From Paenibacillus hemerocallicola (GTDB lineage Bacteria; Bacillota; Bacilli; Paenibacillales; NBRC-103111): a DNA stretch of 64,000 nucleotides. How positions within the stretch are numbered: position 1 is the stretch's first letter; each line of letters starts with the position of its first letter. A model generated the notes under the pieces. It was not told the origin of the DNA and made no database searches. It saw only the letters and a list, made by a program, of their open reading frames with translations. The stretch lies in contig NZ_VDCQ01000038.1 in NCBI RefSeq assembly GCF_006265175.1, positions 1 through 64,000 of the forward strand, written 5' to 3'. Positions 11,718-64,000 of this stretch are shown one piece after another. Position numbers and translations under genes: made by a program.

Positions 11718-13460
11718 ATGCGTTTCATCAGCCTGCGGACCAAATTGATAGCGGCTTCGCTGTGCTTCGTGCTGCTGCCGATTATCGGCATTGGCGCATA
11801 CGCCTATAACGAATTCGAAAACATATTGAGCGCGAAAATCGCCGAGGCGACGTCCGATCGGCTACTGCAGGTGAACCGCAATATCGTGCAGGAGCTGACG
11901 ATGATGGTGAACGCCTCCCGATCGATCGTGCTGGACGAAAACGTACTTGCGGTGCTCGCACGTTCGCCTGACACGAGCCGGGACAAGTTGGACAACGTCG
12001 GGCGGATGGACAAGAAATTTCTGGAGGTGTCGACGGCGATCTTGACCGACTCCCCCCTGTTCACTCTGGTCGACAACGACGGATTCGTCTACACGAATTG
12101 GGGCCAGACGCCGCAAGCGCTGGCTCAACTGCGGCAATCGGACTGGTACCGGCAAGCCGAGGCGGAAAAAGGGTACATGGTGTGGAAGCTGAACCACGAC
12201 AGCTATATCAAGCCGGCGGAAGGCAAGCTGGTGACGCTGGCGCTGGCGATCCGCGACAAAGATTTGCAAAACGTGATCGGGATGCTCGTCATCAGCCGAC
12301 CCGCCGACCAGTTTTTGCGCATGTTGGCGGCTAAAAGCGAAGGCGTGCTCGGGTTTATGGTCGACGAGGACGGGCAGCTGCTGGGGGAGCACACGCCGGA
12401 GCTCGACGCGCTGTATCCGCGCATCGCCGACGGGCTGGCCCGGCATGTAAACGGATTTACTGCCGGAGTGGGGGACAACCGCTTCGAGATCGTCGCTGAC
12501 ACCGTGCCGATCGCCGACTGGCGCGTCGTGCAGGCGGTGTCGTACAATGACATGCTGAAGCCGGTCGCGCAAATCCGTCAAGTCGTATTTGTGCTGCTCG
12601 CAATCAGCATGGTATTGTTTATGTCGATCATTGTCGTCCTTTCCTCGATGGTCACCCGACCGCTGCGCCGGCTGGGCGGCCTGATGAAGCAGGTCCAGTC
12701 GGGACGGTTGGACGTCGCCTTTGAAATCCGCTCGCGCGACGAGGTCGGGCTGCTCGGAATGACGTTCAACCAGATGCTGCTCAAGCTGAGCGATCATCTG
12801 GACCGGGAAATCGAGCTGGAACGCAGCAAGGAGCAGGCCAAGCTGGAAGCGCTGCAGGCGCAGATCAACCCGCATTTTTTGCATAACACGCTGAACACGA
12901 TCAAATGGATGTCGATCATGCGCGGGGCGAAGGATATTACCGACATGCTGCTGTCGCTCGGCAACCTGCTGAACATGAGCATTAACCGGGGGCAGGAAGC
13001 GATCCGGCTGGCGGAGGAAATTGAAAACGTGCGCAGCTTCCTGACGATTCAAAAATACCGGTTTGGTGACACGATACGGGTTGTGGAGAGCTTCGGGACG
13101 GAAACGCTGGACGGCTATGTGCCGAAGCTGTCGCTGCAGCCTCTGGTAGAAAATGTGTACCGTCACGGCTTGTTCATCGACGGAGGGCAAATGACGTTAT
13201 GCTCACGCCTGGACGGGGACGAGCTGCTGCTGCGGGTGGCGGACAACGGCGCGCCGCCCGCCCCCGAGCGGCTGCAGGCGATCGAGGAGCGGCTGGCGGC
13301 TGACGAAAACGGATCGTTTTCCGGAATCGGCATCGCCAACGTGCACCGCCGCATTCAGCTCATGTTCGGCTCCGCGTACGGCTTGCGTTTCGAACGCGAC
13401 GAGGCGGAGGGCACGAACGTGTTTACGATTCATATACCGTTTCGGAGGGATGGGGTATGA
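11718..13460 (+). CDS. YesM-type sensor histidine kinase
   Basis: 580 residues. ATG 11718 was chosen over 11688 because GAGG lies seven bases before it and the protein then opens with a membrane anchor (LIAASLCFVLLPIIGIGAYAY). An extracellular Cache-like sensor region (~residues 35-285) is followed by a second membrane helix (VFVLLAISMVLFMSIIVVLS), a HAMP linker, the phospho-acceptor segment AQINPHFLHNTLNTIKWM, the N-box LQPLVENVYRHG and G-boxes (ADNGAPP, SGIGIANVHRRIQ). Such kinases sense extracellular sugars or the binding protein and phosphorylate the paired YesN regulator. The next gene overlaps by four bases (ATGA), so the two are coupled. The downstream binding-protein-dependent transporter (15223-18370) is the likely target. 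Confidence 0.94.
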   Translation: MRFISLRTKLIAASLCFVLLPIIGIGAYAYNEFENILSAKIAEATSDRLLQVNRNIVQELTMMVNASRSIVLDENVLAVLARSPDTSRDKLDNVGRMDKKFLEVSTAILTDSPLFTLVDNDGFVYTNWGQTPQALAQLRQSDWYRQAEAEKGYMVWKLNHDSYIKPAEGKLVTLALAIRDKDLQNVIGMLVISRPADQFLRMLAAKSEGVLGFMVDEDGQLLGEHTPELDALYPRIADGLARHVNGFTAGVGDNRFEIVADTVPIADWRVVQAVSYNDMLKPVAQIRQVVFVLLAISMVLFMSIIVVLSSMVTRPLRRLGGLMKQVQSGRLDVAFEIRSRDEVGLLGMTFNQMLLKLSDHLDREIELERSKEQAKLEALQAQINPHFLHNTLNTIKWMSIMRGAKDITDMLLSLGNLLNMSINRGQEAIRLAEEIENVRSFLTIQKYRFGDTIRVVESFGTETLDGYVPKLSLQPLVENVYRHGLFIDGGQMTLCSRLDGDELLLRVADNGAPPAPERLQAIEERLAADENGSFSGIGIANVHRRIQLMFGSAYGLRFERDEAEGTNVFTIHIPFRRDGV

Positions 13461-24267: not shown

Positions 24268-24947
24268 TTGCGGCGAAACGTCGCTATTCGAGAGGCTTCA
24301 TCGAGCGAGCCTTCTGCTCGTCAGGGGTGAAGAATAGCGTCTTTTGCTTATAAGGACAGAAGGTTGTAATAGGAACCCATGTAGCTGTCGTTATGACATT
24401 GATCATTGGACACTTTGACCGTCAATACAACGGATGAAATTCGATGAAGAAGTGCTAATTGAAACTGAGAGATTATGGAAGTCCTGCGTGATTTAATTCA
24501 GTGTAATGATATTTATCATCGCACTAACGGTACGATAGTTGAATCCTAGCAAGGCCGCCGATTACTTCGACGGCCCTTTGTCTGCTTCTGTCTCTGCAGG
24601 GTGATGTAACATCATAAAAATTTATATGTGCCAAAATACTTTACAGAATGTCCCCTCTTCCTTTCGAATTCAGGTTAGGCGTTGTTCTCAACGTATTTCC
24701 AAGGACGTTGGTCCGATAACCGGACTATTCTTTCTGCGTACGACATGGCGCACGGTTTTCCTTCATCCGGCTTTCCGATGTTCTTCTTTCTTCCGCGTTA
24801 CGGTAATTTCCTAGCTAGCGAGTTTCTTTAATCCCACAAGCTGTGCCGCGATGGCCGCTTGGCGAGACTTGCCGTGTTTTCTACGACGATTGCGCTTCTT
24901 ATTCCAGAACAGCGTGAGGCGCTTTCGGATGTACCAGTCGATTTTGT
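24268..24947. other. AT-rich gene-poor region
   Basis: No credible gene. CGCTATTC at about 24284 and GAATAGCG at about 24332 form a wide inverted repeat. TTGGACACTTTGA at about 24408 repeats the motif seen near 11033. A partial copy of the CCCGTTAG element family lies at 24522-24580. The abrupt fall in GC compared with the acid-sugar genes suggests inserted DNA. Confidence 0.5.
24522..24580 (-). repeat. Partial CCCGTTAG-type element with hairpin
   Basis: On the minus strand it reads hairpin GGCCGTCGAAGTAATCGGCGG-type stem (24553-24575), then AACTATCGTACCGTTAGTG (24522-24540). The second part matches the right core CTATCGTACCCGTTAG of the elements at 61.3-63.7 kb with one C missing. The other core is not recognisable. 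It shows that the element family is dispersed in this genome and not confined to the right-hand island. Confidence 0.6.
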
Positions 24948-55110: not shown

Positions 55111-57729
55111 TTGGAGACGGTTCAAGTGAAGCGACTGGAAGGACTCAGCGAAAAAATATTTCTCGATCGGTACGCGATGAAAGACGCCGATACGGAAAAT
55201 ACGGTCGTGGGCGATATGGTTCTCGTCCTGACGAAGGACGATCCGAAATTTCCGAGCAAGGAAGTCGGGGAAGTCATCGCTCGCACAGGCAGACAAGTAA
55301 CGATCCGGCTCCGCAGTGGAGAGCTGTTCGAATCAAGCATAGAGAAGTTGACGCTGACGAAGGAGAAGACGCCGGATCAGCTGTGGGACCGTTTGGCTGC
55401 CGCAATGGCATCCGTCGAGGCTACTCCGGAGAAGCAGAAGGAATGGAAAGACAAATTCCGCTACATTTTGGACGACTGGAGGCTCGTTCCGGGAGGGCGG
55501 ATTGCGGCAGGCGCCGGCGCAAGCGACGAGCTGACGCTGTTCAACTGCTACGTCATTCCTTCGCCGCACGACAGCCGCGGTGGCATCATGTCCACGCTGT
55601 CGGAGATGACCGAGATCATGTCGCGCGGAGGCGGCGTCGGGATCAATTTGTCGTCTTTGCGTCCGCGTCGCTCCGTTGTCAGAGGAGTTAGCGGCTCTTC
55701 GAGCGGTGCCGTTTCCTGGGGCGGGCTGTTCAGCTATACGACCGGACTGATCGAGCAGGGAGGCAGCCGCCGCGGCGCTCTCATGCTCATGATCAACGAC
55801 TGGCATCCGGACCTGCTCGACTTCATCACCGTCAAGTCGACGATGGGCCAAATTACGAACGCCAATCTGTCCGTTTGCGTCAGCAACGGGTTTATGAAAG
55901 CCGTGAAGGAAGATCTCGACTGGGAGCTTGTGTTCCCGGATACGACCGATCCGGAATACGACGAAATTTGGGACGGCAACCTTGACAATTGGAAGGCGCT
56001 GGGCAAAAAAGTAAAGGAGTACCGCACCGTCAAAGCACGCGAGGTGTGGCACACGATCATCGAATCCGCATGGCGTTCCGCCGAACCGGGCGTCGTGTTC
56101 ATGGAATATTACAACCAGATGTCCAACAGCTGGTACTTCAATCCGATCATTTGTACGAACCCGTGCGGAGAGCAAGGGCTGCCGGCATGGGGCGTGTGCA
56201 ACCTGTCCGCGATCAACCTGTCGAAGTTTTATGACGAGGAGAAGCATGACGTCGCCTGGGACGATTTGGGCAAGACGGTCCGCTATTCCGTCCGTTTCCT
56301 GGACAACGTCATCGACAAGACGCCTTATCATTTCGAGGAAAACGAGAAAAACCAGAAGAGCGAACGCCGCGTAGGCTTGGGTACGATGGGACTTGCCGAG
56401 CTGATGATCAAGCTGAAGGTTCGGTACGGCAGCGCGGAATCGCTCGTGTTCCTCGATAAATTGTACGGATTCATGGCGAAGGAAGCTTACTTGTCTTCGG
56501 CGGATATCGCCGGGGAGAAAGGCTCGTTCACCCAATTCGACGCCGACAAATTTCTTCAGAGCGGCTTCATGAAGCAGATGACCAAGACATTCCCCGAAGT
56601 CGGCACGTCGATCCGGAAAAAAGGAATGCGCAACGTTACGGTCATTACGCAAGCGCCGACGGGAAGCACCGGTACGATGGTCGGTACCTCGACCGGCATC
56701 GAGCCGTACTTCGCCTTCGAATATTTCCGTCAAAGCCGGCTCGGCTACGACAAGCAATATGTGCCGATCGCGCAGGAGTACAAGGACCAGCATCCGAACG
56801 AGGAGCTGCCGGACTACTTCGTAACGTCGATGAGCTTGTCGGCGGAAGACCATATCCGCGTGCAGGCCGCCATCCAAACGTGGGTCGACAGCTCGATTTC
56901 CAAGACGGCCAACTGTCCGTCCGATTTCACCGTCGAAGAAACGAAGAACCTGTATGAGCTCGCGTTCGACCTCGGCTGCAAAGGCGTGACGATCTATCGT
57001 GACGGAAGCCGGGACGTGCAGGTGCTGTCGACCGAGAAGAAAGAGGAGAAGAAGGAAGAGGCCAAGCCGGAGAACGCGAAGGATGAAGCGGTTCAGACGA
57101 TCAAAGAGCAACCGGCCGCCGGAGCCGGGGACTCCACGGCGCTGACTCAGCTGTCCGAAACGCTGTCTACGGGCATCGACCAGCAGACGAAGCAAGTATT
57201 CGACAAGCAATATAAAAAACGTCCGCAAACGCTCCGCGGAGCGACCTATAAATTCAATACGCCGTTCGGCATGGCGTACATTACGATCAACGATATGAAC
57301 GGCACGCCGAGCGAAATATTCATGAACGTTGGCAAAGCCGGCTCCGACGTGTTCGCAATGTCCGAAGCGCTCGGCCGCGTCTGCTCCTTGTTCCTGCGTT
57401 ACGGCGACCACGGCGACAAGGTGCAGCTGCTCGTCAAGCACCTGAAGGGCATCGGCGGCTCCGGCGCCATCGGCTTCGGCGCCAACCGCGTCGAGTCGAT
57501 CGCCGACGCCGTCGCCAAAGCGCTCGAAATGCACAGCGGCGACGAATCCGAGCCGTACATTACGGCGACCCAGGAAATCACCGCAACCGTCGAGAGTGCG
57601 CCCGTGAAGCCTCACGTCCACTCCGGCAGCATCTCGACCGACCTGTGCCCATCGTGCGGCACCGCCTCGCTGGTCAATAGCGAAGGCTGCAAAAACTGCA
57701 CAAACTGCGGATACAGCAAATGCTCGTAA
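55111..57729 (+). CDS. nrdJ: Adenosylcobalamin-dependent (class II) ribonucleotide reductase
   Basis: 872 residues from TTG 55111, after CGGGAGGG. Reduces ribonucleotides to deoxyribonucleotides with coenzyme B12 as radical source, in all oxygen conditions. Key residues are Cys146 (TLFNCYVIP), Asn350-Cys352-Glu354 (TNPCGEQGLP) for the thiyl radical and general acid/base, and QAPTGSTGTMVGTSTGIEP for the phosphate site. A charged linker (~residues 645-690, EKKEEKKEEAKPENAK) leads to a C-terminal TSCPD-like domain and a final Cys cluster (LCPSCGTASLV..CKNCTNCGYSKC), which relays electrons from thioredoxin and/or binds zinc. No nrdAB/EF genes are near. Confidence 0.97.
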   Translation: METVQVKRLEGLSEKIFLDRYAMKDADTENTVVGDMVLVLTKDDPKFPSKEVGEVIARTGRQVTIRLRSGELFESSIEKLTLTKEKTPDQLWDRLAAAMASVEATPEKQKEWKDKFRYILDDWRLVPGGRIAAGAGASDELTLFNCYVIPSPHDSRGGIMSTLSEMTEIMSRGGGVGINLSSLRPRRSVVRGVSGSSSGAVSWGGLFSYTTGLIEQGGSRRGALMLMINDWHPDLLDFITVKSTMGQITNANLSVCVSNGFMKAVKEDLDWELVFPDTTDPEYDEIWDGNLDNWKALGKKVKEYRTVKAREVWHTIIESAWRSAEPGVVFMEYYNQMSNSWYFNPIICTNPCGEQGLPAWGVCNLSAINLSKFYDEEKHDVAWDDLGKTVRYSVRFLDNVIDKTPYHFEENEKNQKSERRVGLGTMGLAELMIKLKVRYGSAESLVFLDKLYGFMAKEAYLSSADIAGEKGSFTQFDADKFLQSGFMKQMTKTFPEVGTSIRKKGMRNVTVITQAPTGSTGTMVGTSTGIEPYFAFEYFRQSRLGYDKQYVPIAQEYKDQHPNEELPDYFVTSMSLSAEDHIRVQAAIQTWVDSSISKTANCPSDFTVEETKNLYELAFDLGCKGVTIYRDGSRDVQVLSTEKKEEKKEEAKPENAKDEAVQTIKEQPAAGAGDSTALTQLSETLSTGIDQQTKQVFDKQYKKRPQTLRGATYKFNTPFGMAYITINDMNGTPSEIFMNVGKAGSDVFAMSEALGRVCSLFLRYGDHGDKVQLLVKHLKGIGGSGAIGFGANRVESIADAVAKALEMHSGDESEPYITATQEITATVESAPVKPHVHSGSISTDLCPSCGTASLVNSEGCKNCTNCGYSKCS

Positions 57730-57831: not shown

Positions 57832-57926
57832 TTGAAATTTTATACGGTCAATTGAATAAAAATACACTAATGGCAGCTGAGATCTTTTCAGTTGCCTTTA
57901 TTTTTTATAAAGGTGGGCATCGATTT

Positions 57927-58841
57927 ATGAATAAATGGCGGTTGTCACGACGACCAAGTATGATCGAAGACGAATCACTTGAAGGTTTTTTAGTGCGTGT
58001 CTCTCAAATAAATGGTTACGAAGACATTGATGATCATTCCAAATTTCAATATCACTATTCGCCTGTGCTAAATGAAATAAAAAATAATAAAAAATACATA
58101 CTGAATATATTATATGACTTGGCGGAGGTGCTAACAGGGCAAGAAATAATTAGACGTAATCATGATAGAAAATATCTTAGCAGTAGAGGGTTATTATTTG
58201 GGCACGGGTGTGTATGGTATCCACGATTAACTCGATATTGTCCATTATGTCTTCAAGAGAGTAAGTATCATAGGATTCAATGGTCTATGATTCCAGTTTT
58301 AGTTTGTGATAAACATTTGTGCTTTTTAAGACATAAATGTCACGAATGTGATCATTTCACTAACCTAAAAGCAACTATTACAGGGATTTGCAATAGATGT
58401 GAGAGGGATATTACAGTACAATATGACAAAGTAACTAGAGAATTTTTGTTTGAACATCCCTTTTTAGTTAATATAGATTATCTGAGTGATAAGAGAGTAT
58501 TTCTTCATCTTACAGGGGAAAATTTATTTAAACTGAAAAAATGGCTAATATTTTGTATTGTAAATATCAATGATATGAAGAAAAAAAGTTTATGGATACA
58601 ATATTCAACAAAGTCAACAGTCATACGAATCACTGATTTTGACATAGAAAAGATAAATGATTATCTAATTCTGACTGATAACTTGATAAGCAATTGGCCA
58701 GAGAACATTATCAAATATGCTAATAACAATATGATTTTAGAGGAACGACAACATTTTATTAATACATTTTTTAAAAGAAAACATTCCTATGGTAACATGG
58801 ATATTATTAATTTTTTGAATCGGATAAAAGTTAACTCATAA
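57927..58841 (+). CDS. TniQ-family protein
   Basis: 304 residues from ATG 57927, after AAAGGTGGG. RRPSMIEDESLEGFLVRVSQINGY is the TniQ N-terminal signature (P..DESL.G.L.R....NGY). Zinc-finger residues are Cys105, Cys108 (RYCPLC), Cys127, His130 (CDKH), Cys138, Cys141 (CHEC) and Cys155, Cys158 (CNRC). TniQ/TnsD proteins choose target sites for Tn5053- and Tn7-like transposons. No transposase (TnsA/B, TniA) or AAA partner (TnsC/TniB) is in the window, so this copy is orphaned. Codon use is AT-rich, quite unlike nrdJ next door; the gene was acquired by transfer. The C-terminal half has no recognisable domain. Confidence 0.85.
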   Translation: MNKWRLSRRPSMIEDESLEGFLVRVSQINGYEDIDDHSKFQYHYSPVLNEIKNNKKYILNILYDLAEVLTGQEIIRRNHDRKYLSSRGLLFGHGCVWYPRLTRYCPLCLQESKYHRIQWSMIPVLVCDKHLCFLRHKCHECDHFTNLKATITGICNRCERDITVQYDKVTREFLFEHPFLVNIDYLSDKRVFLHLTGENLFKLKKWLIFCIVNINDMKKKSLWIQYSTKSTVIRITDFDIEKINDYLILTDNLISNWPENIIKYANNNMILEERQHFINTFFKRKHSYGNMDIINFLNRIKVNS

Positions 58842-59234: not shown

Positions 59235-59285
59235 CTACGACTCTTAACGGCAGTCCCGTCTTAGTTGAGAAGGGACTTACGGTCA

Positions 59286-60128
59286 CTAAAAATAACGCCT
59301 ATACAATTCCCTTCGTCGTTCTCCTCGTAACTGAGCATAGATCTGTGTAGTGGATGCTTTCTCGTGGCCCAACATCCCTTGGATAAAATCTAAAGGTGCA
59401 CCATTATCAAGCAAATGACAGGCATAGGTATGACGGAACCGATGAGGGTGCACGTTTACGGCAACCTTTCCACGGGTTGCGAGCTTTTTTATCGAAAAGC
59501 TTATTGTGGGAATTGTCATTCGTCGGACAGGGTGAGTTTCCGTCACAAAGAGGGCTTTACAAGAATCCTCACGCTCCTCAAGGTATCTCTTTAACCAGAC
59601 CTTACACTCTGTCGTAAAATAAACTTCTCTTTGCTTAGAACCTTTCCCATTCACAATTGCGGAGCAGTTTTCCCAGTTGATGTCTTCAACATTTAATCTG
59701 TGAACCTCACCGACACGGCATCCAGTACAGTATAGGAATTCCAAGAGTGCATGCTCGCGCGGAGAATCACAGGTAATCTTGAGATGAATAATATCCTCCT
59801 CTATCAAAAACTTTGGGATCCGTTTTTCCATCTTTGGTTCTCTCAGTTTTAAAGTTGGATTTTTAGTGACGTGACCTTCTTCGAATGCAAATCGAAAAAG
59901 GGATCTGACGAACCGAATTCGATGCCCTAGGCTGCTTGGCTTTAATCGCTCCGACTGTTTCGCCAGATAGCTCTTCAGCAAAATTAGGGAGACTTCTTCG
60001 ATTTCAAGGTTGCCGATTTCTCGGACCAGAACATTTAACTGGAGGGAGTATGCTTTCAAGGTGTGCGGGCTAAATCCCAAAATGCGCTTATCAGCCTCAT
60101 ACAACATCCACAGATCCATCAATCTCAT
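59286..60128 (-). CDS. Xer-like tyrosine recombinase
   Basis: 280 residues. The SAM-like N-terminal domain (residues ~1-95) is followed by the catalytic domain: Arg138 (TGCRVGEVHRL), Lys162 or Lys165, His229-Arg232 (HPHRFRHTYA), His255 (GHEKASTTQIY) and nucleophile Tyr264. All catalytic residues are present. Size and order fit the XerC/XerD family; the extra helix of integron integrases (IntI) is not evident. It lies directly beside a 15-bp inverted repeat (60131-60188) and at one end of a run of small gene cassettes, so it may act on those sites (inference). The start may be ATG 60119 (MDLWM). Confidence 0.92.
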   Translation of the reverse strand: MRLMDLWMLYEADKRILGFSPHTLKAYSLQLNVLVREIGNLEIEEVSLILLKSYLAKQSERLKPSSLGHRIRFVRSLFRFAFEEGHVTKNPTLKLREPKMEKRIPKFLIEEDIIHLKITCDSPREHALLEFLYCTGCRVGEVHRLNVEDINWENCSAIVNGKGSKQREVYFTTECKVWLKRYLEEREDSCKALFVTETHPVRRMTIPTISFSIKKLATRGKVAVNVHPHRFRHTYACHLLDNGAPLDFIQGMLGHEKASTTQIYAQLRGERRRELYRRYF

Positions 60129-60130
60129 AT

Positions 60131-60188
60131 ATTAAACCCTCCCAATGGCTTATTATCCTTAGCTTCGCTTTGCTTGGGAGGGTTTAAT
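60131..60188. repeat. 15-bp perfect inverted repeat before the recombinase gene
   Basis: ATTAAACCCTCCCAA (60131-60145) and TTGGGAGGGTTTAAT (60174-60188) are exact inverted copies with 28 bases between. They begin two bases from the recombinase start codon. The arrangement suits an autoregulatory operator or a recombination core with two recombinase arms. Confidence 0.8.
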
Positions 60189-60218
60189 CATTCCTTTCCA
60201 AAATAATGGTTCTCGTCG

Positions 60219-60240
60219 CTAGTGTATCCATTAGCGGAGC
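60219..60240 (+). repeat. Half-element resembling the right core of the CCCGTTAG repeats
   Basis: CTAGTGTATCCATTAGCGGAG matches the right core CTATCGTACCCGTTAGCGCAA at about two thirds of positions. It stands 31 bases beyond the inverted repeat at the recombinase gene and no hairpin or left core precedes it. Confidence 0.45.
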
Positions 60241-60656
60241 CGTAGTAGCTTTGATTTATTCTCTTTAATACAATACCTGGCGAGACGGAGTACCTTGGAA
60301 ACTGTTCCCCCCTTACAGTTCTTATGTCTTAAAAAATCTTCATTCCATCATTCCTGCTGAAAATGAAAATGACCCCTCGAAAGGGGTCATGGTATTAGGA
60401 CACAAATATGATAGATGTACCAATGACTGCTTGAATCAGTTTTAAGCTACACGAGCACAGATTAACGAAAAAAAAACTGGCACAAATACAGTTAACCAAG
60501 TGACCAAATACAAAAAAGGATATCCCTAAAAAAGATACAGATAAATACTATCTTATAAAAAAATCGAACATAAGTGTATTACTTTTTTTGAATAAATTGT
60601 ATGTTATTAATGCGGCCGCAACGCAGTATGAATAGGGATGACGGGAGAAGAGCTAT
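60241..60656. other. AT-rich gap with a hairpin
   Basis: No gene seen. TGACCCCT and AGGGGTCA at 60369-60388 form a tight hairpin with loop CGAA; on the minus strand T-rich sequence follows, so it could terminate transcripts moving toward the recombinase. A NotI-like GCGGCCGC at about 60613 stands alone in AT-rich DNA. Confidence 0.5.
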
Positions 60657-61133
60657 ATGATTACACTCAGGAAGATCACACTGGAAAACCGGCGTGCCAT
60701 GTTTAACTTGGAGGTTACAGAAGACCAACGGCGCTTTGTTGCATCCAATCTGTCAAGCGTGGCTTCGTGTTATGTCCTTTCAACCAATGGAGGACATCCA
60801 TTTCCATTTGTCATCTACGCTGATGAGCAGCCGGTCGGTTTTGTCATGTTGGCTTATGGAATCACAGGTTACGAAGATCCGTCAATCGCAGAAGACAACT
60901 ATTGTATCATGCGACTGATGATTGACAAGCAATACCAGAACAAGGGCTATGGTCGGGAGGCTATGAAAAAGATTTTGGAATTTATTCGTACCTATCCAGC
61001 AGGGCCAGCACATTATTGCTGGATTCCTTATAAACCTGAAAACATCGCTGCCAAAAAACTTTATGAAAGCTTTGGCTTCCGTGACAACGGTGAAATTTTC
61101 AACGACGAGTCAATAACTGTGTTGCATCTCTGA
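60657..61133 (+). CDS. GNAT acetyltransferase (spermine/spermidine type)
   Basis: 158 residues from ATG 60657 after GGGAGAAGAG. MITLRKITLENRRAMFNLEVTEDQ, FVASNLSSVA and RLMIDKQYQNKGYGREAMKKIL (acetyl-CoA loop Q-N-K-G-Y-G) are those of the BltD/PaiA-like GNAT group that acetylates polyamines or similar amines. It is the only gene of the array on the plus strand. It resembles the minus-strand GNAT at 63119-63571 (shared ITLRKI/ISLKEI start, VPSNL/VASNL, RLMIDEQYQGKG), so the two are paralogous cassettes. Confidence 0.9.
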   Translation: MITLRKITLENRRAMFNLEVTEDQRRFVASNLSSVASCYVLSTNGGHPFPFVIYADEQPVGFVMLAYGITGYEDPSIAEDNYCIMRLMIDKQYQNKGYGREAMKKILEFIRTYPAGPAHYCWIPYKPENIAAKKLYESFGFRDNGEIFNDESITVLHL

Positions 61134-61172
61134 TTTGCTGCCAAACCGTTGAAGACGTAGGATCAAAGAAAG

Positions 61173-61195
61173 GGCCATCCCGCAAAAGGATGGCC
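61173..61195 (+). terminator. Hairpin after the GNAT gene
   Basis: GGCCATCC and GGATGGCC pair around CGCAAAA; no T-run follows. Confidence 0.5.
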
Positions 61196-61262
61196 GTAAT
61201 ACTTGCCGTTACAGACAGCGCGGAGAATCTTATCATAGTTTAAAGCGTGTGATTGCGTTATT

Positions 61263-61343
61263 CTTCCCGTTACTTCAATGAAGAAGGGAGCAGTTGCCAT
61301 GGCGATCTGCTCCCTATCTAATTTCACTATCATCCCAGTTAAA
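61263..61343. repeat. CCCGTTAG element E1
   Basis: Left core TTCCCGTTACTTCAATGAAG, central hairpin GGGAGCAG/CTGCTCCC, right core CACTATCATCCCAGTTAAAC. The hairpin is almost the same as that of E2, but the rest differs. Confidence 0.75.
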
Positions 61344-61401
61344 CAGATAAATTGGAATTTTCAATTATCCGATTGTCTTCTGATCTTCGACTTAAAGAGT
61401 A

Positions 61402-61686
61402 TTAAGTTTTCCTATTGGATAATTTCTTATAAATATAGACAATTGGAAACCACAAAAAAATGGCGTGCATGAGTCCGACAAACGAAGCAATTAATACGGA
61501 AGCTGGAACGCTTATCAAACCTGCGTTAACGCCTCTCGTAATTACTTTTTCGCCACTTTGAAAAACTATTTCATCCGAAAAGAAAGAAGCTATCAGTAAT
61601 CCAATTCCAACAATTAATCCAAAAATAGTATAAATCAAAACTGTTTTCCGTATAACTTTTTTCAACATCCCAAATTTATACTCCAT
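61402..61686 (-). CDS. Small two-helix membrane protein
   Basis: 94 residues, MEYKFGMLKKVIRKT then the membrane helix VLIYTIFGLIVGIGLLIASFF, a short external loop, and a second helix SVPASVLIASFVGLMHAIFLW. The C-terminus is basic. No family recognised. It lies between elements E1 and E2 and is transcribed toward E1. AT-rich codon use like the other cassettes. Confidence 0.7.
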   Translation of the reverse strand: MEYKFGMLKKVIRKTVLIYTIFGLIVGIGLLIASFFSDEIVFQSGEKVITRGVNAGLISVPASVLIASFVGLMHAIFLWFPIVYIYKKLSNRKT

Positions 61687-61727
61687 TCCGTTTGTTGATA
61701 TTAATTACTTGGCGGAATGACTGAATG

Positions 61728-61813
61728 CTGCCCGTTACTCCAAGGAAAAAAGGGAGCAGTTGCAGCGGCGATCTACTCCCGTCTAATTCCACTATCGTAC
61801 CCATTAGTTCAAT
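61728..61813. repeat. CCCGTTAG element E2
   Basis: Left core CTGCCCGTTACTCCAAGGAA, central hairpin GGGAGCAG/CTACTCCC, right core CACTATCGTACCCATTAGTT. The stop codon of the kinase gene (61809) lies inside the right core. Confidence 0.8.
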
Positions 61814-62372
61814 CGCTCAATCTTTGCTTTAATACTTTGAAGGCATTTAAATGAGAATTATCATGCAAATACTGTTTGATTTGCTGTGCACACTCATGAG
61901 TTTTATTGAGTTCCGTATTTATTTCTAAGTCGTAAGTGCCATGTGTATGAACCAGATTATACTGATAATTTGCAAGACCAATATTCCGATCTCCTCTTTC
62001 CCTTTCTCTTCGTTGAAGTTCTTCTAACGAACAATTTACTGAAACAAACAACACTTTGTAATCCGCTAACAACATAACACATTCATCTAACCACTGTCTT
62101 TCTTGGAGTACATGGTCGACAATTATGTTATTCCCAGTAGCAACTAATGCGGAAAGTGCATGATGCATTCCCTTTGCAACTTTCAACATCGCATCTTTAG
62201 TTTTATCCGCTGGTTTACTTCCATTAAGGTATTCAACTGGAAGCATATGAAAAAACTTATCTGCAGATATGTGTAAGTATGGTTCGTCTAAAATTCGTTG
62301 TAATTCTAAGGAAATACTGGTTTTCCCCGAACTCGAAGTTCCATTTAAAAATATAACTGTCCCTAGTTGCAT
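61809..62372 (-). CDS. Chloramphenicol phosphotransferase-like kinase
   Basis: 187 residues. FLNGTSSSGKTSIS (P-loop Gly11 to Thr18), Asp38 in LHISADKF (equivalent of the catalytic Asp37), VDHVLQERQWLDEC and LFVSVNCSLEELQRRERERGDR match the CPT family (PF07931), which phosphorylates chloramphenicol's 3'-hydroxyl. Cassette-borne copies may protect against other antibiotics or modify unknown small molecules. It lies between elements E2 and E3 in the minus-strand series. Confidence 0.88.
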   Translation of the reverse strand: MQLGTVIFLNGTSSSGKTSISLELQRILDEPYLHISADKFFHMLPVEYLNGSKPADKTKDAMLKVAKGMHHALSALVATGNNIIVDHVLQERQWLDECVMLLADYKVLFVSVNCSLEELQRRERERGDRNIGLANYQYNLVHTHGTYDLEINTELNKTHECAQQIKQYLHDNSHLNAFKVLKQRLSD

Positions 62373-62407
62373 TAAACATTACCCTCTTTCCGTTGACTTA
62401 AAGTTAA

Positions 62408-62482
62408 CTGCCCGTTAGTGGAGTGAGGCCGCTGCTTGATCCCGCGGCAACCCCATTGAGCTATCGTACCCGTTAGCGCAAT
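62408..62482. repeat. CCCGTTAG element E3
   Basis: Left core CTGCCCGTTAGTGGAGTGAG, central hairpin GCCGCTGC/GCGGC (loop TTGATCCC), right core CTATCGTACCCGTTAGCGCA. The two CCCGTTAG cores are identical and in the same orientation, about 58 bases apart. Confidence 0.85.
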
Positions 62483-62495
62483 AATGCGAGTGTGC

Positions 62496-63026
62496 TCAAC
62501 TCAGTTCTACCTTGTGCTGCCGTAACAGTGCCGAAATATCGACGCCGTTTATCGTCAACCCTTCAATATCGCAACCTTCGATACTGACGCCTCGTAAATT
62601 AGTTTCGCGAACGACGGCATCCTCCAAATTGCATGAAGTGATTTGTACTGGAGGGTTCGCAGCAGTATGCCCGTTCTCAAGTTGATCCTTGTTCCCGTAG
62701 CCGATATGCTTAAAATGTGCGCCACCCCATTGCGCGCCGTCGATTGACATTCCCGTCAGATTAGCGTCCGAGATACTTAATCCCGACAAATTAACATCAA
62801 ACAAAGTAATTCCACTCATGTTTGCGTTATTTATTTTTGTCTTTGCCAAGCTTACATTATCGATATCAAGCTCCTCAGCTCTGACCTCCTGCCACTTAGA
62901 CCCTGAAATATCTGCCCTTTGCAAATCCAAATGTTCCACCTTTAAGCTCATCTGGTTATCCGCCTTATTAAAATGAATTGCTCTCTTTACTTCAACGCGC
63001 ACCCCAATATTTCCTGCATTATCCAT
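62496..63026 (-). CDS. Pentapeptide-repeat protein
   Basis: 176 residues. A(D/N)(L/I/M)xx-type repeats run over most of the length (LDLQRADISG, AKTKINNANMSGITLFDVNLSGLSISDANLTGMSIDGA, CNLEDAVVRETNLRGVSIEGCDIEGLTINGVDI), broken by a ~30-residue loop. The fold is a right-handed quadrilateral beta-helix. Some relatives (Qnr, MfpA) protect gyrase from quinolones, but most have no known function; this one is not clearly Qnr. It fills the cassette between E3 and E4. Confidence 0.88.
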   Translation of the reverse strand: MDNAGNIGVRVEVKRAIHFNKADNQMSLKVEHLDLQRADISGSKWQEVRAEELDIDNVSLAKTKINNANMSGITLFDVNLSGLSISDANLTGMSIDGAQWGGAHFKHIGYGNKDQLENGHTAANPPVQITSCNLEDAVVRETNLRGVSIEGCDIEGLTINGVDISALLRQHKVELS

Positions 63027-63035
63027 TAAACTAGC

Positions 63036-63085
63036 CTGCCCGTTAGCGTAACAAGCTGCCGTTTAGCACACGGCCTTGTCATGGT
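63036..63085. repeat. CCCGTTAG element E4, partial
   Basis: Left core CTGCCCGTTAGCGTAACAAG and a short hairpin GCCGT/ACGGC are present; no right core is found before the next gene. It is probably a degenerate element. Confidence 0.6.
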
Positions 63086-63118
63086 GTGAATTAATGTTCT
63101 ATGAACCCGATCAAGAAT

Positions 63119-63571
63119 TTATTTTATCTTAAGTTCGTCGACAGGCCCATCGGGCTTTGATTTTAGTTCGTTTCGCTTAAACCCTAAGCTTGCATATAGC
63201 CTTTGTGCAGCAACATTATCCGGTTCGTAGCTAACCTGTATTCCTTTACAATCATTTTTTTGTTTGATAATGTTAATGACTGCTTGAAGCGCACGTTTTG
63301 CGATCCCTTTTCCTTGATATTGCTCATCGATCATCAATCGAGGTATTACATAAACCCCGTTATTTGGAACATCATCCCACATAATAAATCCAACCATAGT
63401 CTCATCCAAATAAATCGCAAACGGTACAAACGAATAATATTCAGTATTTTGGTACTTGGCTTGTACAAGAGAATAAAGATTTGAAGGTACAAAATGCTCT
63501 TGTTCTTTTTTAACCTTTAATTTTATACATTCTTTCCAATTTCGATGGTCGATCTCTTTTAAGGATATCAA
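63119..63571 (-). CDS. GNAT acetyltransferase
   Basis: 150 residues. MISLKEIDHRNWKECIKLKV, FVPSNLYSLVQ and RLMIDEQYQGKGIAKRALQA (acetyl-CoA loop Q-G-K-G-I-A), then YEPDNVAAQRLYASLGFK, are diagnostic. It is closest in build to spermidine/spermine-type GNATs and paralogous to the gene at 60657. Minus-strand cassette between E4 and E5. Confidence 0.9.
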   Translation of the reverse strand: MISLKEIDHRNWKECIKLKVKKEQEHFVPSNLYSLVQAKYQNTEYYSFVPFAIYLDETMVGFIMWDDVPNNGVYVIPRLMIDEQYQGKGIAKRALQAVINIIKQKNDCKGIQVSYEPDNVAAQRLYASLGFKRNELKSKPDGPVDELKIK

Positions 63572-63657
63572 CTGTTCCCCACCTTCCTAATTCCCCATCA
63601 ACCTTACAATTGAAATCTAAATTTTTCTTGAGAATATATCGTTATCAATTAACTTTT

Positions 63658-63747
63658 CTGCCCGTTAGCTTAATGAAAACGGCAGCCGATCTTTGAACTG
63701 GCCGGCTGCCGTTGTGTCTATTTTTAACTATCGTATTCGTTAGTTTA
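63658..63747. repeat. CCCGTTAG element E5
   Basis: Left core CTGCCCGTTAGCTTAATGA, central hairpin CGGCAGCCG/CGGCTGCCG, right core AACTATCGTATTCGTTAGTT. It is the longest member (cores 75 bases apart) with the strongest hairpin. Confidence 0.85.
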
Positions 63748-63757
63748 AACGAATAAT

Positions 63758-64000
63758 TTAATCCCGAGTTAATGTAAGAATTGGATTGTTAGAACTAACC
63801 AACTCTTTATTTGCGTTATAATACATATCCTCAAGAGTAATTTCATTTTTGTTTTTAATTGTATATTTGAAAATTAATTTATCGTTAGGTGCATAGACTC
63901 GCTGTAATGTCCAAACCATAACAGACCCCGTAATAAATTCATATTGCCCTTTAATCTCCACATCACTAGAATACAAATATACCATTGTCATATCTTCATT
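63758..64000 (-). CDS. 3' end of an unknown protein, truncated by the window
   Basis: The frame is open to the last base of the window; 81 residues are visible, ending LTLTRD at 63758. The region is beta-rich (VEIKGQYEFITGSVMVWTLQRVYAPNDKLIFKYTIKNK). No family recognised. It is the next minus-strand cassette gene, directly after element E5. Confidence 0.6.
   Translation of the reverse strand, partial: NEDMTMVYLYSSDVEIKGQYEFITGSVMVWTLQRVYAPNDKLIFKYTIKNKNEITLEDMYYNANKELVSSNNPILTLTRD

Follow-up and report, generated by a model that had tools for sequence, protein, structure and literature searches.

What is known of systems that collect small genes into exchangeable arrays, and where does a locus from Paenibacillus stand among them? 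In integrons, a tyrosine recombinase sits beside an attI site and serves long, oriented arrays of small, mostly single-gene accessory cassettes, divided by compound attC sites made of two simple sites around a hairpin; clusters of attC sites without an integrase are called CALINs. The dif modules of Acinetobacter plasmids (XerC/XerD, pdif) have sites of 11-6-11 geometry and two module classes, as passages in PMC13141974 describe, with junctions inside the sites and single modules exchanged between contexts. Bacillota have almost no complete integrons: IntegronFinder 2.0 reports one in Firmicutes/Bacillota (Limnochorda pilosa) and a few CALINs (PMC9024848), and we found IntI over its curated cut-off in 1 of 299 Bacillota genomes. 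Here we describe an array at one end of a 64,000-nt stretch of Paenibacillus hemerocallicola (NCBI RefSeq GCF_006265175.1, contig NZ_VDCQ01000038.1, positions 1–64,000, forward strand; hereafter "the window"). An earlier note, made from the letters of this DNA, had proposed a distinct gene-cassette capture system of Bacillota, a proposal now backed by oriented arrays in Paenibacillaceae genomes and on Bacillales plasmids. Very probably the locus is an array of gene cassettes in the chromosome that a simple tyrosine recombinase of its own, Int, operates through the arms and spacer of the core sites. Its working resembles that of an integron and, in the logic of its two module classes, that of dif modules; by the tests made it belongs to neither.

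The array is built on core sites, described with position matrices as imperfect palindromes of 28–29 bp (11-bp arm, 6–7 bp spacer, 11-bp arm). They come in two kinds, R with the consensus ATTGAACTATC-GTACCC-GTTAGCTTAAT and a spacer of 6 or 7 bp, and L with the consensus ATTAAACTATC-CTGCCC-GTTAGCTCAAT; several positions vary in both. An element consists of an L core (spacer CTGCCC), a hairpin, and an R core (GTNNCC), and genes occupy the interval from an R core to the next L core. Window positions 60213–64000 are the int-proximal end of the array, which runs on beyond the window. Along the orientation of the cores, the order is a degenerate L half, an antisense int, an R core, a gene, and five L-hairpin-R elements with genes between them:

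59260–59270, plus strand: degenerate L half-core after the int stop, CTTAGTTGAGA (read by eye; missed by the matrix scan)
59286–60128, minus: Int, 280-aa tyrosine recombinase (Pfam Phage_integrase 5.1e-34; own clade 100/99; relatives core-flanked in most of 80 loci)
60131–60188, minus: int leader hairpin with a 15-bp perfect stem (inverted repeat I5; fold z −4.64; consensus pairs kept in relatives)
60213–60240, plus: attI-like R core before int (matrix score 17.2; counterpart in 56/80 loci)
60657–61133, plus: cassette 1, GNAT acetyltransferase, reversed relative to the other cassettes (Pfam, open reading frame)
61252–61279, plus: L core 1 (matrix score 28.4)
61280–61320, no strand: hairpin module 1, GGGAGCAG...CTGCTCCC (sequence, fold)
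61321–61348, plus: R core 1, degenerate (read by eye; under the matrix-scan threshold)
61402–61686, minus: cassette 2, 94-aa orphan (no Pfam match)
61717–61744, plus: L core 2 (matrix score 16.3)
61786–61813, plus: R core 2 (matrix score 36.6)
61809–62372, minus: cassette 3, CPT-like kinase (Pfam CPT 7.7e-50)
62397–62424, plus: L core 3 (matrix score 27.7)
62455–62482, plus: R core 3 (matrix score 41.9)
62496–63026, minus: cassette 4, pentapeptide-repeat protein (Pfam Pentapeptide 3.2e-14)
63025–63052, plus: L core 4, R partner not recognised (matrix score 34.2)
63119–63571, minus: cassette 5, GNAT acetyltransferase (Pfam Acetyltransf_1 6.7e-16)
63647–63674, plus: L core 5 (matrix score 31.5)
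63675–63721, no strand: hairpin module 5, AACGGCAGCCG...CGGCTGCCGTT (fold z −4.56)
63722–63749, plus: R core 5 (matrix score 31.7)
63758–64000, minus: cassette 6, orphan, extending past the window end (open reading frame, Pfam)
About position 64206 of the contig (G000:C100): next L core, beyond the window

All five elements that the earlier note had placed at 61263, 61728, 62408, 63036, and 63658 are found there, each at its position. The string given for one of their ends, CTGCCCGTTAG, is perfect in three (62408, 63036, and 63658) and carries one mismatch at 61728 and two at 61263; across the whole window, with two mismatches allowed, it occurs at chance level (19 found, 14.6 expected). The string for the other end, CTATCGTACCCGTTAG, is perfect once (62461), with one mismatch at 61792 and two at 63728; right cores of this type are degenerate in the first element and unrecognised in the fourth. 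At up to three mismatches it occurs five times in the window against 0.29 expected, a number reached in 0 of 100 shuffles, and four of the five lie within the array. As a marker by itself, the octamer CCCGTTAG does not reach significance in the window (4 found, 1.6 expected). A further copy claimed at 24.5 kb was not recovered: no core was found nearby, the closest string, CTGCTCGTCAG at 24314, has two mismatches, and the matrix scan is blank there. The genes between right and left cores, described as lying on the minus strand, do so in five cases, and the first (GNAT, 60657–61133) is on the plus strand. Two features had escaped the earlier note: the 28-bp palindrome that every core forms, and a further core (60213–60240) that precedes int.

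How regular is this arrangement in other genomes? We scanned 80 stretches from nine genomes, 20 from the window genome and 60 from eight relatives, and found 768 cores compared with 3 in controls consisting of the identical DNA reversed or complemented. The stretches were picked from contigs already showing sites, and the matrices were trained on the same data; the core count is therefore uninformative about density elsewhere. Nearly all cores (760 of 768) match the majority direction of their stretch. In the larger set of stretches and loci described below, segments starting at an R core have a median length of 778 bp, and in 501 of 574 the longest frame of at least 80 aa opposes the core orientation, pointing at int. 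Some cores lie within about 300 bp of draft contig ends (G001:C59, G001:C50, G000:C130, G000:C40, and G000:C42); arrays are probably cut short in public draft assemblies.

Do the segments between cores behave as exchangeable units? We compared inter-core segments all against all and aligned the junctions of pairs at least 85% identical in different contexts. At R cores, identity is mostly 0.8–1.0 over the gene-side arm and the last spacer bases and then drops (15 R-left pairs), and segments ending in R cores behave alike (12 R-right pairs). At L cores, it is high over the left arm and the invariant center and drops in the far arm (14 L-right pairs); segments starting in L cores are noisier (identity 0.62–1.00, 8 L-left pairs).

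The comparison was extended to a larger set of 159 stretches and loci. Four loci (L164, L206, L237, and L241) duplicate contigs of other stretches; with these dropped, 155 stretches and loci and 885 segments remain, on which the pair counts, the attI test, and the GTTRRRY count given below are based. Dropping them cost two gene pairs that matched a locus to itself and altered no conclusion. In this set, 36 segment pairs are homologous throughout at 90% identity or more. Fourteen are gene segments (R to L), one of them at a contig edge; in the 13 whose flanks are both readable, the neighboring DNA is different on both sides in 9, common to the two copies on the right in 3, and common on both sides in 1. 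Another 17 are int modules (16 recognised by size and one, L232/L242, by position); their surroundings are different on both sides in 16 cases and on the left alone in 1. The remaining five comprise three other L-to-R segments, different on both sides, one L-to-L, and one R-to-R. Some pairs lie within single contigs of 5.4 and 6.3 Mb, which makes assembly error unlikely there; same-contig repeats include 1,206 bp at 99.7% in genome G018 and 1,837 bp at 99.5% in G023. Near-identical segments also link species: P. eucommiae and FJAT-28004 (2,325 bp, 98.8%), Paenibacillus sp. H1-7 and PL91 (995 bp, 98.8%), and P. terrigena and FJAT-28004 (544 bp, 98.7%). For reference, an 872-aa frame of the window (55111–57729), which we take to be a class II ribonucleotide reductase, is 72–76% identical over aligned pieces in the same species pairs. 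Much of the check proposed in the earlier note comes out in its favor: a pair of elements encloses a single gene, this gene varies from locus to locus and from species to species, and the junctions fall within the cores. Unlike an attC, the element mostly stays behind when a gene moves. In exceptions such as L037/L133 and L162/L163, the inner core is lost and the hairpin is carried along with the gene. One gene end lies on an R-type core in G023 and on an L-type core in G001, which suggests L-by-R exchange as well. In 5 of 12 moved pairs, one of the copies sits immediately beside attI, which involves four attI segments; this position is held by 4 of 21 moved segments and by 35 of the 626 others (p = 0.03). 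A comparison of neighboring conserved segments for inserted ones gave seven matches, one with 1–3 extra segments (L231 vs. L209, two extra), too few to be used.

The hairpins recur in different contexts as well. Among 295 L-hairpin-R elements, 112 hairpin pairs are at least 90% identical (66 elements are involved, and the pairs are not independent), and the outer DNA is unrelated on both sides in 109 of them (110 in another count). The breakpoints are sharp: at the left junction, the six L-spacer bases have identities of 0.84–0.99, and the value drops from 0.93 at the last of them to 0.36 at the adjoining base of the left arm; at the right junction, it drops within the R spacer, from 1.00 at the second base to 0.43 at the third. 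As judged from these pairs, module ends lie within the cores, and each kind of module recurs nearly unchanged in unrelated contexts. A gene module begins in the right half of an R core and ends in the left half of an L core, and the other slot, from L-right to R-left, holds a short hairpin or the int gene. On sequence comparison, then, modules come in three kinds, gene, hairpin, and integrase, and the kinds assort separately.

What does the hairpin do? It folds better than shuffles (median z −2.2, 53% below −2, in 121 non-redundant hairpins). In the window only the fifth element (63640–63760) lies far below shuffles (z −4.56, 0 of 200 shuffles as good); the other four gave z −1.88, 0.47, −1.24, and −0.38. 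A role as terminator was rejected: a TTTT run is seldom found behind the stem, in about 1 of 47 hairpins on one strand and 2 of 39 on the other. Gap lengths between L and R cluster at about 28–33 and 39–44 bp, with peaks near 31 and 41 (312 elements, 121 non-redundant). This is suggestive, and only that, of L and R facing one side of the helix with the clusters about one helical turn apart; two peaks fix no period, and 12–13 bp scored slightly above 10.5.

The Int protein carries R-K-HxxR-H-Y residues, read from its sequence, which we take to be the tyrosine recombinase motif. Its NCBIfam scores fall under the curated cut-offs for XerC (197 of 335 bits), XerD (195 of 330), and XerA (189 of 220), and the window genome encodes a separate XerD (402.5 bits). 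The recombinase is Xer-like, as the earlier note had called it, and it also forms a clade of its own: in a tree of the window Int and relatives from 14 loci, Int and three plasmid relatives group together (100/99) separately from XerC/XerD, and IntI1 of R100 groups with a Bacillota IntI (100/100) apart from Int (phage-type rows were left out; with long branches, the order of the deeper nodes is uncertain). The IntI profile TIGR02249 gives Int 93 bits against a cut-off of 265 and aligns only at 12–181 and 241–301; the IntI-specific insert of the catalytic domain is missing from Int by both profile match and alignment. Passages of PMC8138268 describe that insert as incompletely conserved in its subgroup yet essential to integron function.

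Int relatives were sampled as the best 80 of 152 confirmed ones in named genomes (Paenibacillus, Cohnella, Brevibacillus, some labelled Bacillus, and one metagenome-assembled genome). In 56 of the 80 loci, the int start is preceded at a distance of 50–110 bp by an R core on the opposite strand, so that by position an attI-like site appears to stand beside the integrase gene. Its int-side arm is ATTNAACTAGC or close to it, 45 of the 56 having G at the diagnostic position, and the distal half varies; the arm ends in CTAGT in the window and in CTAGC in most relatives. Past the int stop, an L core follows within 14–61 bp in 32 of the 58 loci having an open frame of at least 260 aa, and its half-site starts with TTTAGTT in 24 of the 32. 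Intact relatives mostly show CTGCCC-TTTAGTT... where the window has its degenerate half-core. With an L core after its stop and an R core before its start, Int therefore often fills the slot held elsewhere by hairpins. The 3′ arm of the int leader stem contains a Shine-Dalgarno-like run, GGGAGGG, and six consensus pairs are kept in most of 42 leaders. Since the stem covers this run, translation of int is probably controlled, and the leader hairpin is likely a translational switch of the integrase. A TniQ-domain gene lies near the int module (57852–58841).

Does the integrase go with the sites? We surveyed the window genome and 58 relatives, 59 genomes in all, for a single 16-bp pattern with no more than two mismatches, calling a genome site-rich when it had at least 10 matches and three times the reversed-pattern control, a hand-scored criterion set after the counts were seen. 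The pattern fits only 6-bp spacers, so genomes with 7-bp spacers are undercounted. Int was present at E ≤ 1e-60 in 7 of 10 site-rich genomes and 8 of 49 others (Fisher p = 0.0015). The three site-rich genomes without Int at this threshold (G002, G035, and G047) are possible integrase-less arrays. G002 and G035 resemble CALINs in being rich in sites and lacking a close Int, and differ from them in that the sites here are not attC by sequence.

How might the modules be exchanged? Int most likely binds both inverted 11-bp arms of a core and exchanges strands within the 6–7 bp spacer; the positions of the module ends agree with a tyrosine recombinase acting there. New genes would enter at the attI-like R core before int and at other cores. 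Exchange would be R by R and L by L, occasionally L by R, with each event moving one gene and one hairpin; two events of unlike kind would leave a gene beside new hairpins on both sides, decoupling genes from hairpins. The same two-event logic is found in the cointegrate-and-resolution route proposed, in passages of PMC13141974, for single dif modules. The substrate would be double-stranded DNA, because the palindromes are strong and arm covariation is lacking; that the hairpin takes part in a paired L/R complex is a guess. As an outcome, Paenibacillaceae would share a mobile stock of small accessory genes, namely GNATs, glyoxalases, APH-family phosphotransferases, and orphans.

Several observations weigh against an array operated by Int in this way. 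Neighboring cores are L-R or R-L in 453 of 675 cases and R-R or L-L in 222, part of the latter being missed weak cores. Depending on the threshold, 53–63% of R cores have no L partner at 10–60 bp, although in such partnerless cores (336) the fold on the hairpin side (mean −12.7) still exceeds that on the opposite side (−6.7). R spacers differ even beside one hairpin family, which makes strict spacer matching hard to uphold. The attI enrichment of moved cassettes hangs on four segments. No R core lies 50–110 bp upstream in 24 of the 80 Int loci, one of which has only 94 bp of upstream DNA. An L core is absent just after the int stop in 26 of the 58 loci; the nearest core is farther off in 11 of these, and 15 have none, four of them with no more than 81 bp of DNA there. 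G002 and G035 are rich in sites without Int at E ≤ 1e-60. That Int is the enzyme of module exchange we infer from sequence, and host XerC/XerD may be the enzyme instead.

Could the array be a true integron with divergent sites? The L-hairpin-R element would then be an attC, folded as a single strand with the L-left and R-right arms paired and the L-right and R-left arms paired. Much of the layout agrees: two simple sites flank a variable hairpin that folds better than shuffles, an attI-like site stands by the integrase, cassettes are oriented and single-gene (760/768 cores and 501/574 longest frames), and a few segments (the two pairs named above) take the hairpin along with the gene. However, the arm pairing is unsupported. 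In the 121 non-redundant hairpins, the L-right/R-left (d/e) arms are less complementary than shuffled partners (z −2.65), below chance, and the L-left/R-right (c/f) arms are not significantly more so (p = 0.12). Judged by arm covariation, neither attC-like folding nor the paired R and L boxes of attC find support; covariation of the first cassette bases with the far arm, an integron signature, gave no signal. As the earlier note had said, the cores do not fit GTTRRRY, one of the two attC ends (RYYYAAC and GTTRRRY) and present in just 19 of 791 R cores; their arms are palindromic and 11 bp long. Int lies outside IntI and lacks its insert. Genes and hairpins of Int arrays mostly move apart (9 of 13 moved gene segments differ on both sides), genes oppose the core orientation, towards int, and int itself is bounded by cores on both sides. 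We consider an integron unlikely.

Alternatively, host XerC/XerD might shuffle modules in the manner of dif modules, with Int a passenger gene. The 11-6-11 geometry, the two module classes, the junctions inside sites, and the exchange of single modules between contexts are common to both, and G002 and G035 (G047 too) are site-rich without Int at E ≤ 1e-60. In dif modules the two classes alternate strictly; here they alternate in 453 of 675 neighboring pairs and not in 222, some of these owing to missed weak cores. Adjacent cores, though, are direct rather than inverted by spacer, with 760 of 768 in one orientation, and L and R spacers differ in kind. Unlike dif modules, the arrays contain a dedicated integrase gene, lying between cores at near-fixed distances in most loci, and are chromosomal, with dozens of cassettes, in Bacillota; site-rich genomes tend to have Int. 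Shuffling of this kind is improbable. A third reading, in which the cores are repeats or terminators scattered between ordinary genes by homologous recombination, would account for the many solitary cores and for the several at contig ends, where repeats are found, but the uniform orientation, the breakpoints inside cores, and the rarity of TTTT after the stem already disfavor this account and make it highly improbable.

The arrays may be a third, independently evolved cassette system of Bacillales chromosomes and plasmids, with a double-strand, dif-like recombinase whose own gene is exchangeable in the hairpin slot; we hold the chances of this broader claim to be evenly balanced. The system is apparently undescribed: among the titles and abstract openings listed by searches of the open-access literature, none gives an account of it, and a prior description in preprints or in most subscription journals is possible. 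Such a parallel system, served by its own recombinase, would account for the gathering and exchange of accessory genes in soil Paenibacillus with large genomes, and its cassettes would form a further pool, one that tools based on attC probably miss. It would also offer a double-strand comparison case for the origin of folded single-strand integron sites from Xer-like recombination.

What do the cassettes carry? Among 140 cassette proteins drawn randomly from 340, Pfam identified 101 families, among them GNAT (14 for its commonest model), glyoxalase (7), APH (4), AraC (3), and NUDIX (2). PADLOC matched eight families among 140 cassette proteins: two proteins match VakA, every other family is matched by a single protein, and three of the families coincide in one protein. 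There is no sign that the array is rich in defence genes. IS110-family transposases occur in or beside arrays (Pfam DEDD_Tnp_IS110 in 2 of the 140 proteins, and at 11986–13188 of the Sporosarcina plasmid, L260).

Int relatives are also found on nine plasmids (37–55% identity, E ≤ 1e-40), of which four were inspected for arrays, and the same layout occurs with a 49.6%-identical Int on a plasmid. CP053689.1 has 30 cores one way and 2 the other (score over 9; 2 in controls), which alternate as L (CTGCCA), hairpin, and R (GCATCA or GCATGC), with int between L and R, turned round. The Sporosarcina plasmid (9 and 2 cores by orientation, controls 3) and a Cytobacillus plasmid (7 and 0, controls 0) show the same pattern on a smaller scale; a Peribacillus plasmid has just 3 cores (controls 1). 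No stretch of the viral contigs matched the Int patterns, which detect close relatives only, and phage records gave one remote Int match (33% identity). CP053689.1 is labelled Arthrobacter citreus, a label that may be wrong; its Int and sites resemble those of Bacillales plasmids. Group IIC introns occur near recombination sites in integrons. Rfam, run over three array stretches, returned only two group II intron matches, both on a plasmid: they lie with an ltrA gene inside the array of CP053689.1 (L261, 21316–23221).

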